A stretch of 32,353 nucleotides of DNA from Limisphaerales bacterium (GTDB lineage Bacteria > Verrucomicrobiota > Verrucomicrobiia > Limisphaerales > UBA1100): contig JACNJL010000066.1 in the NCBI GenBank assembly GCA_014382585.1, forward strand, positions 1-32,353, in the 5' to 3' direction. This document shows, piece by piece, positions 1 to 31,921 of the stretch. The stretch's first letter is position 1. Every line of letters begins with the position of its first letter. The position numbers were made by a program, and so were the translations under genes. The notes under the pieces are model-generated. The model was not told the origin of the DNA, did not search any database, and saw only the letters and a list, made by a program, of their open reading frames with translations.

Positions 1-1723
1 AGCTAATGCCAAGTGCCAATTCCTCAGGCTTCTTCCAACTCTCGTCCACCCCCGCATTCGCCGCCGCATACGCCGCGTAATCCTTCACCCGTGTCTCCCA
101 AATGCAAAACTGCACCTCTGTCCCCTGAACCGGCACAAACTTCATGCCGAGCGTGTTGGTGAAGAATTTGGGAGGAGTGGGCTCCTTGTCCTTCGTCACC
201 ACCGCCACAGCGGCCACAGCGACCACAGCGGCCACAGCAGCCACCCACTTGAGCATCCCGCCAGATTTTTCAGGTTCGGGCTGGGCGGTCGCGTGCTGTG
301 AAGTCGAATGACTCTCCCTCTTCCGGGCCCTTTCCTGTTGAGGTTGCCGCTGGGCGCGGGGGGAAGGGGCGGCGGGCTTGGTTTTTTCGGGTGGCTTGGC
401 TGGAATTCGTTGCACTTCCGGCTGCACGGGCGGACTCGCGGGCTCGTCCCTCCAAGGAGCCGGTTCGTCGGTTGGGCTGTCATTGGAGGGACGAGCCTGC
501 GAGTCCGTTTCAACAACTTCCGCCTCCGCCACAGGCGTGGCAAAGCTCTCCACTTCCAGCGCCTGTTTGATTTGATTGAGCGCGGGCCGGTCAGCGGGTT
601 CGTCCTCCAGGCATTGCTCGATGAGGGCTGCCCACGCGGGCGGGCAGTCGGGGCGTTGGGTCTGGATTTTCAAGCGTCGTCCGGGGCGGCGACTGGTGAG
701 TAGCTCGTGCCAAATAACGCCCAAGGCAAACACATCCGTGGCGGCAGTGATCTCCATCCCCTCGGCCTGTTCCGGCGCCATATAATGCATCGTGCCGGCA
801 AAGGTGCCGGTGCGGGTGAGCACGGTACTTTGCTCGCCGCCGACTTGCTTGGCCAACCCAAAGTCGGCCACCTTCACCCCGCCATCCTGACCCACCAATA
901 AATTCCCGGGCTTGAGGTCGCGATGCACGATGCCGTGCGCGTGTAAATTGACGAGCCCTTCGACCACTTGCTTGAGCACGAGCTGGATTTCCTGTAAGGG
1001 CATCGGCTCGCTGGCGTTTTTGTAAACAGTCAGTCGTTCGCCCACCGTCCAGCCTTCCACCCAATCCATCGCCATCCAATGCAGCTCGCCCTCGGTGCCC
1101 GCATCCTGCAAGCGCACGAGGTTGGGATGCACCACGCTTTTGAGCGTCCGTACCTCCTGCTCAAAGCGCTTGAGCCATTGGTGATCCTTGTTCAAGTCCG
1201 GCGTGGGCAGCTTCACGGCGGCGGGTTGCGCGGTGTCCTCGTGGATGCCCTGCAACACGATGCCCATCCCGCCGCGCGCGACAAACTTCCGGATTTCATA
1301 CGGCCCAATCTTCTTCGGCAAATCGCCATTAAACGAGGCGTGCTCCACTTTGAACCGTTCCCCGCCCGCGGCATCGGCCCAGTAATCATCGCTCAACGCA
1401 CCCATCCCGCTCACGCGCCGACGGCACCGAAGGGTCACCCCGCCCAACACCAACGATAGCCCCGGAAACAATTCGGTTTCCTCCACCTCCCCCGGTTCCG
1501 GATCCAACAACGGCAACTTGGCCGGTGGCTCCGCCCGCAGCCAATAGGCATCCCCCCGCTTCACCACCTTCGCGTGAATGCGATCCACATCGGGGTGGTC
1601 GATGTGGATGGTATTGGACTTGGCCCGACCGATGCTGAGGGCGACTTGCGCAAAAAATTCCTCCGCGGTGCCCGATTCGCTCTCCACCACCAACGTGAGG
1701 TCGCTGGAGGAACTGGAGGGCAT
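1..1723 (-). CDS. FHA - Ser/Thr protein kinase - TM - FGE-sulfatase domain protein (partial, 3' end beyond window)
   Basis: This is a membrane-bound Hanks-type Ser/Thr kinase read on the minus strand; 574 codons are visible and the frame stays open through base 2. The start is the ATG at 1723, since an in-frame TAG lies about 20 codons upstream. Residues about 10-50 look like an FHA domain (SIGRAKSNTIHIDHPDVDRI). The kinase has a glycine loop (ARGGMG, near 153-158), Lys171, HRDLKPGN (267-274, catalytic Asp269), DFG (287-289) and APE (316-318). A Pro/Glu-rich linker follows, then one hydrophobic segment (about 490-510). The last visible part (FTNTLGMKFVPV...ETRVKDYAAY) is the start of an FGE-sulfatase/SUMF1-type domain. 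The architecture is common in PVC bacteria and suggests an intracellular kinase coupled to an external sensing domain. The linker contains an inverted-repeat element (432-506). Confidence 0.9.
   Translation of the reverse strand, partial: MPSSSSSDLTLVVESESGTAEEFFAQVALSIGRAKSNTIHIDHPDVDRIHAKVVKRGDAYWLRAEPPAKLPLLDPEPGEVEETELFPGLSLVLGGVTLRCRRRVSGMGALSDDYWADAAGGERFKVEHASFNGDLPKKIGPYEIRKFVARGGMGIVLQGIHEDTAQPAAVKLPTPDLNKDHQWLKRFEQEVRTLKSVVHPNLVRLQDAGTEGELHWMAMDWVEGWTVGERLTVYKNASEPMPLQEIQLVLKQVVEGLVNLHAHGIVHRDLKPGNLLVGQDGGVKVADFGLAKQVGGEQSTVLTRTGTFAGTMHYMAPEQAEGMEITAATDVFALGVIWHELLTSRRPGRRLKIQTQRPDCPPAWAALIEQCLEDEPADRPALNQIKQALEVESFATPVAEAEVVETDSQARPSNDSPTDEPAPWRDEPASPPVQPEVQRIPAKPPEKTKPAAPSPRAQRQPQQERARKRESHSTSQHATAQPEPEKSGGMLKWVAAVAAVVAVAAVAVVTKDKEPTPPKFFTNTLGMKFVPVQGTEVQFCIWETRVKDYAAYAAANAGVDESWKKPEELALGIS
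432..506. repeat. 23-bp inverted-repeat element, copy A (inside the kinase gene)
   Basis: The left arm (432-454) and right arm (484-506) are inverted copies matching at 22 of 23 positions, with a 29-base spacer. The arm core is CTCGTCCCTCCA, ending outward in GGACTCGC. The same arms occur at 22688, 31582 and 31857. Here the element lies in frame in the kinase linker, where the two arms encode TDSQARPS and WRDEPASP (about residues 406-431). Confidence 0.9.
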
Positions 1724-18311: not shown

Positions 18312-18366
18312 GGTAGGGCGTGCTCTCCGGGCGCGCCTTGGCCAACCCCGGAGAGGCGGCCCTGCC
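18312..18366. repeat. Dispersed palindrome, family 2, copy 1
   Basis: The sequence begins GGTAGGGCGTGCTCTCCG and ends GAGGCGGCCCTGCC, forming an imperfect hairpin. It matches the reverse complement of 31775-31828 closely over most of its 55 bases, so both are copies of one dispersed repeat. It fills the gap between the ROK kinase stop (18368) and the DUF1080 start, where it could act as a weak terminator. Confidence 0.75.
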
Positions 18367-22635: not shown

Positions 22636-22687
22636 CGGTTGATTTTAGTTCAGCAAAATTAAAAAATAAATCCTGTCGTCGGTTTCC

Positions 22688-22744
22688 GGATTCGCAGGCT
22701 CGTCCCTCCATGGGTTGCGCTTGGAGGGACGAGCCTGCGAGTCC
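22688..22744. repeat. 23-bp inverted-repeat element, copy B
   Basis: Left arm 22688-22710 and right arm 22722-22744 are inverted copies (22 of 23 match; GGATTCGC replaces GGACTCGC on the left), with an 11-base spacer. It is in the intergenic gap between the PSD1 stop (22751) and the DUF1501 start (22635), so it could form a hairpin that separates the two genes' expression. Confidence 0.9.
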
Positions 22745-22750
22745 GTTCGT

Positions 22751-31528: not shown

Positions 31529-31581
31529 CGGCGCTAGTGTGGCGGACCAACGAAGTTTGTCCAGTCGGGAGCGTCGGCAAC

Positions 31582-31642
31582 GGACTCGCAGGCTCGTCCC
31601 TCCATAGGCGCGCTCGGACTGGAGGGACGAGCCTGCGAGTCC
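31582..31642. repeat. 23-bp inverted-repeat element, copy C
   Basis: Left arm 31582-31604 and right arm 31620-31642 are perfect inverted copies (23 of 23), with a 15-base spacer. It lies about 55 bases upstream of the PSD1 start. The flank on the right, GATTCTCAC, is also found after copy D. Confidence 0.92.
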
Positions 31643-31657
31643 GCTAGATGATTCTCA

Positions 31658-31774: not shown

Positions 31775-31828
31775 GGTAGGGCGGTTTCTCCGAAACCGCC
31801 TCGGCGCGCTCGGAGAGCACGCCCTACC
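31775..31828. repeat. Dispersed palindrome, family 2, copy 2
   Basis: Its reverse complement begins GGTAGGGCGTGCTCTCCG and ends CCGCCCTACC, matching the palindrome at 18312-18366. The ends are inverted copies (GGTAGGGCG and CGCCCTACC with a small offset), giving a hairpin. Confidence 0.75.
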
Positions 31829-31856
31829 AGTTAGTGGATTGGCGCTTGACGATAGC

Positions 31857-31920
31857 GGACTCGCGGGCTCGTCCCTCCATTGACAACGGGGCCGCAATGG
31901 AGGGACGAGCCTGCGAGTCC
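31857..31920. repeat. 23-bp inverted-repeat element, copy D
   Basis: Left arm 31857-31879 and right arm 31898-31920 are inverted copies (22 of 23 match; GCGGG versus GCAGG), with an 18-base spacer. It abuts the stop codon (31922-31924) of the dioxygenase remnant, and on the minus strand follows it like a terminator. Confidence 0.92.
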
Positions 31921-31921
31921 G

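Follow-up and report, generated by a model that had tools for sequence, protein, structure and literature searches.

A palindromic repeat with copies in frame inside protein genes of a Limisphaerales bacterium and its congeners

The genome of a Limisphaerales bacterium harbors a dispersed family of palindromic repeats whose copies lie mainly between genes and, in several cases, in frame inside them. We consider it likely that this palindromic repeat is REP-like and non-autonomous, and that it spreads in the form of single arms or inverted pairs. In PutA, a sugar kinase-etherase fusion, PcrA/UvrD and PabB, close orthologues are empty at the site, and insertion into coding sequence is therefore shown for these proteins. 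In-frame palindromes as a phenomenon are already known; the repeat family studied here is undescribed. A literature search for the letters of the repeat returned unrelated papers only, and an Rfam search of the window, by which we mean the whole stretch of 32,353 nucleotides analysed here, gave no match.

The kinase element and its repeat family

The window contains eight arms that make up four elements, and no match was found in 100 dinucleotide shuffles. The features are:

2..1723, minus strand: host ORF with FHA (aa 30-63), Ser/Thr kinase (aa 142-387), a Pro/Ala-rich linker with the element (aa 406-431), TM and the start of FGE
431..454, minus strand: first arm as seen on the plus strand, CGGACTCGCGGGCTCGTCCCTCCA, 24 bp; read second in the minus-strand gene, encodes WRDEPASP
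455..483, no strand: spacer, 29 nt
484..507, plus strand: second arm, TGGAGGGACGAGCCTGCGAGTCCG, 24 bp; read first in the minus-strand gene, encodes TDSQARPS
22687..22745, no strand: intergenic element, GGAG ends of the arms inwards, 11-nt spacer
31581..31643, no strand: intergenic element, 15-nt spacer, both arms perfect
31856..31921, no strand: intergenic element, 18-nt spacer, both arms perfect

The two arms in the kinase gene are copies, one base apart and in inverted order, of a 24-bp arm with the consensus TGGAGGGACGAGCYYGCGAGTCCG. Both are perfect and match the young subfamily of this genome exactly. The element reads VVE-TDSQARPS-NDSPTDEPAP-WRDEPASP-PVQ; its 29-nt spacer is 2 mod 3, and hence both arms fall into the same TDSQARPS/WRDEPASP frame. 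An earlier note on this DNA, made from the letters alone, had described an inverted-repeat element encoding these two peptides in frame inside the FHA-kinase gene, and this is confirmed. It had placed 23-bp arms at 432-506; the location is right, while each arm is one base longer on the outside (431-507). Its further copies between genes near 22688, 31582 and 31857 are the three intergenic elements listed above. The note had also called the kinase, TM and FGE domains unbroken. This holds for the kinase, which like FHA is intact by Pfam, and for the TM stretch, which is visible in the translation; the FGE domain is truncated at window base 1, where the contig ends, and only its beginning is present. 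That beginning is real, since full-length FGE paralogues in the same genome match it.

The 77-nt stretch in the kinase gene folds at a z of about -8 to -9 against shuffles. Kinase orthologues with and without the insert had been proposed as a check. Among 20 genomes of the family none spans the linker (best 30-39% identity), and a scan of GTDB gave only an N-terminal fragment, 82-83% identical and ended by a contig end. Since no orthologue covers the linker, we infer the insertion in this gene, and the empty sites come from orthologues of other genes. The fragment lies in PBOU01000133.1, a MAG labelled Planctomycetaceae bacterium RS383, whose label and size of 6.3 Mb suggest a mixed bin. Lack of an orthologue would also suit the view that the repeats in the linker arose by chance, or that the ORF is a fusion artefact, and the hexamer coding signal is indeed weak in the low-complexity linker past the element (aa 421-480). 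However, no stops occur across the linker, a strong coding signal is regained afterwards in the same frame, and chance does not account for an inverted pair of perfect 24-mers from a family of 96 copies. We therefore regard this view as highly improbable.

The source genome (G000; 3.70 Mb, 95% complete) was compared with the relatives G002 and G003-G007. At up to three mismatches it holds 96 arms versus none for the reversed pattern used as control, and thus the arms are not mere chance matches and the dispersed, mobile-like palindrome of the earlier note stands. The arms group into 53 elements, mainly pairs with the GGAG ends inwards (36, termed TT), a few outward pairs (6, termed HH) and some single arms. 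Paired elements are mostly 58-77 nt in total. The spacers of inward pairs differ in sequence and are most commonly 15-16 nt long, while those of outward pairs are exactly 19 nt in 10 of 18 cases, several of these being alike. Whole elements fold at a z of about -8 to -10, the inverted pair with its conserved ends forming one hairpin as expected of a REPIN. A single arm reaches -2 kcal/mol (z 0.20), which 113 of 200 shuffles equal or surpass, and is thus not a stem-loop unit of its own. Target-site duplications of at least 3 nt, as expected of a MITE, were seen in 2 of 66 cases, compared to 2.5 in shuffles.

The elements lie preferentially within tens of bases past the 3' ends of genes. With gene calls from a custom hexamer model, only 6 of 55 element clusters lie inside called genes, though about 88% of the sequence is coding. 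In four genomes, 77 elements lie between codirectional, 18 between convergent and 10 between divergent genes; between codirectional genes the median distance is 24 nt past the 3' end of the upstream gene. A second palindromic repeat, GTAG-tagged (GGTAGGGCG..CTCTCCG..CGCC), adjoins studied elements at 31776-31828 and 18312-18342 of the window and looks like a classical GTAG REP.

Copies inside protein genes and their reading frame

The earlier note had likened the repeat to palindromes that insert into protein genes, as known from Rickettsia, and the comparison of orthologues bears this out. PutA of G000 and G002 carries 20 element-encoded residues past the aldehyde dehydrogenase domain, while PutA of G007 and G004 has a short linker at the same site and lacks the element. 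The interdomain linker of a fusion protein, a BadF-type sugar kinase joined to a SIS-domain MurQ-like etherase, contains the element in G000, G002 and G003, and the site is empty in G005 and G006. Of the PcrA/UvrD helicases only that of G002 carries the element, an outward pair that lies past the helix following motif Ia and ahead of the TFHS motif. In the five congeners G000 and G004-G007 the site is empty and its flanks are near-identical, and the solved PcrA structure 1pjr has a short loop there. AlphaFold places the insert of the helicase in a low-confidence loop, yet many other parts are of low confidence too; the model as a whole is poor (pLDDT 59.6, pTM 0.36) and was rejected as evidence. 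Two sites in PabB carry one arm each, and the second arm is present only in G002 and G007. In G007 the reading frame of PabB is interrupted close to the N-terminus (around aa 35/36), away from the element, by pseudogene formation or an assembly error. In the glycogen debranching enzyme of G002, G007 and G003 a copy separates GDE_N from GDE_C; in G000 this copy is decayed. In a membrane protein of G000 the element lies just past the conserved start; it is absent from G003, where the MN-x-N start is kept. In three species the C-terminus of PyrD is ADSQARPSK or ADSQARPSR.

The net gain in length is often smaller than the element, namely 39 of 57 nt in PcrA, 51 of 59 nt in PutA and 39 of 68 nt in the sugar kinase-etherase fusion, and local bases were therefore lost or trimmed. 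The insertion is thus not clean or was trimmed later, and the filled and empty sites show the element entering ORFs in place of short linker stretches.

In-gene copies and their frames were also to be counted according to the earlier note. Among 15 in-gene arms, 11 are read in the frame of the kinase (TDSQARPS / WRDEPASP) where 5 are expected (p about 0.002), and none is read as RTRRLVPP or EGRACES; without the kinase the count is 9 of 13 (p about 0.009). Of six paired events inside genes, five have a spacer of 2 mod 3, compared to 27 of 73 events elsewhere (Fisher p 0.037); these counts are small and depend in part on how an event is defined. Owing to uncertain start codons, two start-proximal elements (L087 and L088) that also look in frame were omitted from the frame count. 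No forward frame of the arms contains a stop codon, and hence stops do not dictate the frame. Other frames are used in the debranching enzyme, PcrA and the second PabB arm, and given these exceptions the frame rule is a preference. It is most simply read as selection among insertions in favor of a peptide that is polar and resembles a linker. As such, the peptide most likely has a near-neutral effect.

For the kinase, the element would have entered the gene at the Pro/Ala-rich linker between kinase and TM. It may have been retained because its length together with the spacer preserved the frame, because the arms are free of stops whichever forward frame is read, and because the frame in use yields a polar, disorder-prone peptide in a linker that would tolerate it.

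Spread among congeners and possible ways of copying

Of the relatives, G002 holds 105 arms and about as many elements as G000, two further congeners hold 21 and 15 arms, and the remaining genomes of the genus have none or one. In a class-wide draw of 384 genomes, arms are present in five. Perfect arms differ between the two richest genomes: their cores are 55 CT, 8 CC and 7 TT in G000 (CCTGC in 55 of 70) and 59 TT, 15 CT and 4 TC in G002 (CTTGC in 59 of 78). Elements common to both are mainly those with mismatches, i.e. decayed ones, and among the loci compared perfect elements are mostly unshared. Young copies thus form species-specific subfamilies, and each lineage therefore had a separate burst. 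At alignable intergenic sites of G000 the relatives carry nothing or another palindrome, GTGCTGCCGGCATCTTGCCGGCAG, a family with 109 arms in G002 and 10 in G000. Inverted pairs of this third family occur in G002 at C17:103940-104003 and C17:128666-128740, sites orthologous to studied elements of G000.

The earlier note had read the conserved arms as a sign of recent insertion or ongoing spread. Lineage-specific young copies and the perfect arms of the kinase element agree with this; perfect arms alone are no proof, as the PutA copy has no difference in 48 arm positions between two species and 11 of 80 in its flanks. Gene conversion as a general way of keeping arms identical was considered and rejected: most shared copies decay, and only PutA hints at it.

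Copying would proceed via a single-stranded hairpin in trans, by a putative HUH-type (IS200/REP-like) transposase or by replication and repair. The varying sequence and length of the spacer would not be explained by a simple cut-and-paste unit. A mobilising gene flanked by arms, be it a RAYT or another transposase, was not found in these genomes, which are 93-95% complete, so that this absence is not final. G000 has a single Y1 transposase and G002 has four. By score, the ones tested belong to the IS200 type and stay below the RAYT cut-off. Arms come near a Y1 transposase only at locus L097 of G002, beyond a tRNA and the transposase's own repeats. IS200-type TnpA genes of about 150 aa, at L097:1320-2040 in G002 and L067:3500-4720 in G000, are flanked by two unrelated short repeat families (AGCCCTG-AAGGGCG / CCCGGGGCAACGCCCCGGG; CCGCGAAGCGGCGACAGC).

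The family might be a canonical GTAG-type REP/REPIN moved by its own RAYT that is missing from the assemblies, which we hold to be possible rather than likely. Inverted dimers in both orientations would fit, as would the variable TT spacers and the mostly 19-nt, partly alike HH spacers, a pattern described by Di Nocera et al.; GGAG is followed by an imperfect palindrome, GGAC-GA-GC..GC-GA-GTCC, and REPs of E. coli also have stem mismatches. However, the tag is GGAG instead of GTAG, a single arm folds like its shuffles, and the tested Y1 transposases are of the IS200 type and have other repeats at their sides. The dispersed long inverted repeats and their overall length would also suit a MITE of a DDE insertion sequence with 24-bp terminal inverted repeats. 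This origin is unlikely, as target-site duplications are absent, single arms and outward pairs are common, the spacer is not conserved and no insertion sequence with such ends occurs among the loci read. A selected RNA or DNA hairpin, i.e. a signal for mRNA stabilisation, processing or termination that is kept by its function, with the coding of in-gene copies being secondary, would account for the position close to upstream 3' ends and the rarity between divergent genes, and we hold it, too, to be possible rather than likely. At some orthologous sites a different palindrome family is found, as if a hairpin was wanted, and the arms of shared copies show fewer differences (76/960) than their flanks (219/1431) or spacers (64/331), a figure that is biased since copies are found by their arms in a consensus-based search.

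Yet the hairpins lack a T-run of the kind seen in intrinsic terminators, several orthologous sites are empty (loci L063 and L082 against G005-G007), a functional hairpin gives no reason for copies within compact enzymes, and species-specific bursts fit spread. One may also imagine that unrelated palindrome families alternate at the same loci and overwrite each other together with short linkers, arms being copied and spacers not, coding copies being filtered for one polar frame and no dedicated transposase being involved; we think this rather unlikely. Spread of a REP-like, non-autonomous repeat remains our preferred reading. That arms spread while spacers do not bears on how such repeats copy.

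Comparison with known palindromic repeats

With these data, core enzymes (PutA, PcrA/UvrD, PabB and the glycogen debranching enzyme) of a bacterial genus outside Rickettsia provide orthologous sites with and without a coding palindrome. Neutrality of the insert, retention as a hairpin and selection of the peptide thereby become testable against each other.

The earlier note had taken in-gene palindromes to be new for PVC bacteria. This does not hold, as in-frame REP dimers were described in 2013 in genes of the verrucomicrobium Opitutus terrae, with variable TT and conserved HH spacers (Di Nocera et al. 2013, PMC3733652). The repeat studied here resembles the GTAG REPs of O. terrae in its palindromic TT and HH inverted dimers, with HH spacers more alike than TT spacers, in its position mostly 3' of genes and in some in-frame copies, which add 20-30 aa and have repair genes among their hosts. 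The phylum is the same, as far as the congeners tell. Many dispersed and mainly intergenic copies, often as inverted dimers, are likewise expected of a REP and were found here in 53 elements. In contrast to O. terrae, GGAG takes the place of the GTAG or CGTC tag, for which the arm was searched with GGAG as the nearest match, the sequence is different, the stem of the single arm is weak and no RAYT is flanked by the studied arms. Because of the GGAG tag and the weak single-arm stem we do not class the family as a GTAG REP.

The REPINs of Pseudomonas fluorescens (Bertels and Rainey 2011, PMC3116915) share the inverted conserved ends with a spacer and the species-specific populations, but here no RAYT was found, the spacer of the inward form is not conserved and the GGAG ends point inwards. 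MITEs such as NEMIS, ERIC and YPAL (PMC2229807) are also non-autonomous inverted repeats that in part lie in frame in ORFs. They differ from the present family in target-site duplications, a parent insertion sequence, which was not seen among the loci read, and the solitary arms found here in addition; with no target-site duplication the family is not classed as a MITE.

Rickettsia palindromic elements are palindromes of 105-146 nt (reviewed in PMC2229807). Their mode, in-frame insertion with orthologues that lack it, was found in PutA, the kinase-etherase fusion, PcrA/UvrD and PabB. Common to both are copies in frame in unrelated proteins, additional intergenic copies and tolerance of the peptide. 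The present family belongs to another phylum, is unrelated in sequence, shows a frame preference only and includes single arms. Since its paired elements, mostly 58-77 nt, fall outside 105-146 nt, it is not classed with the Rickettsia palindromic elements, whose way of entering protein genes it shares.
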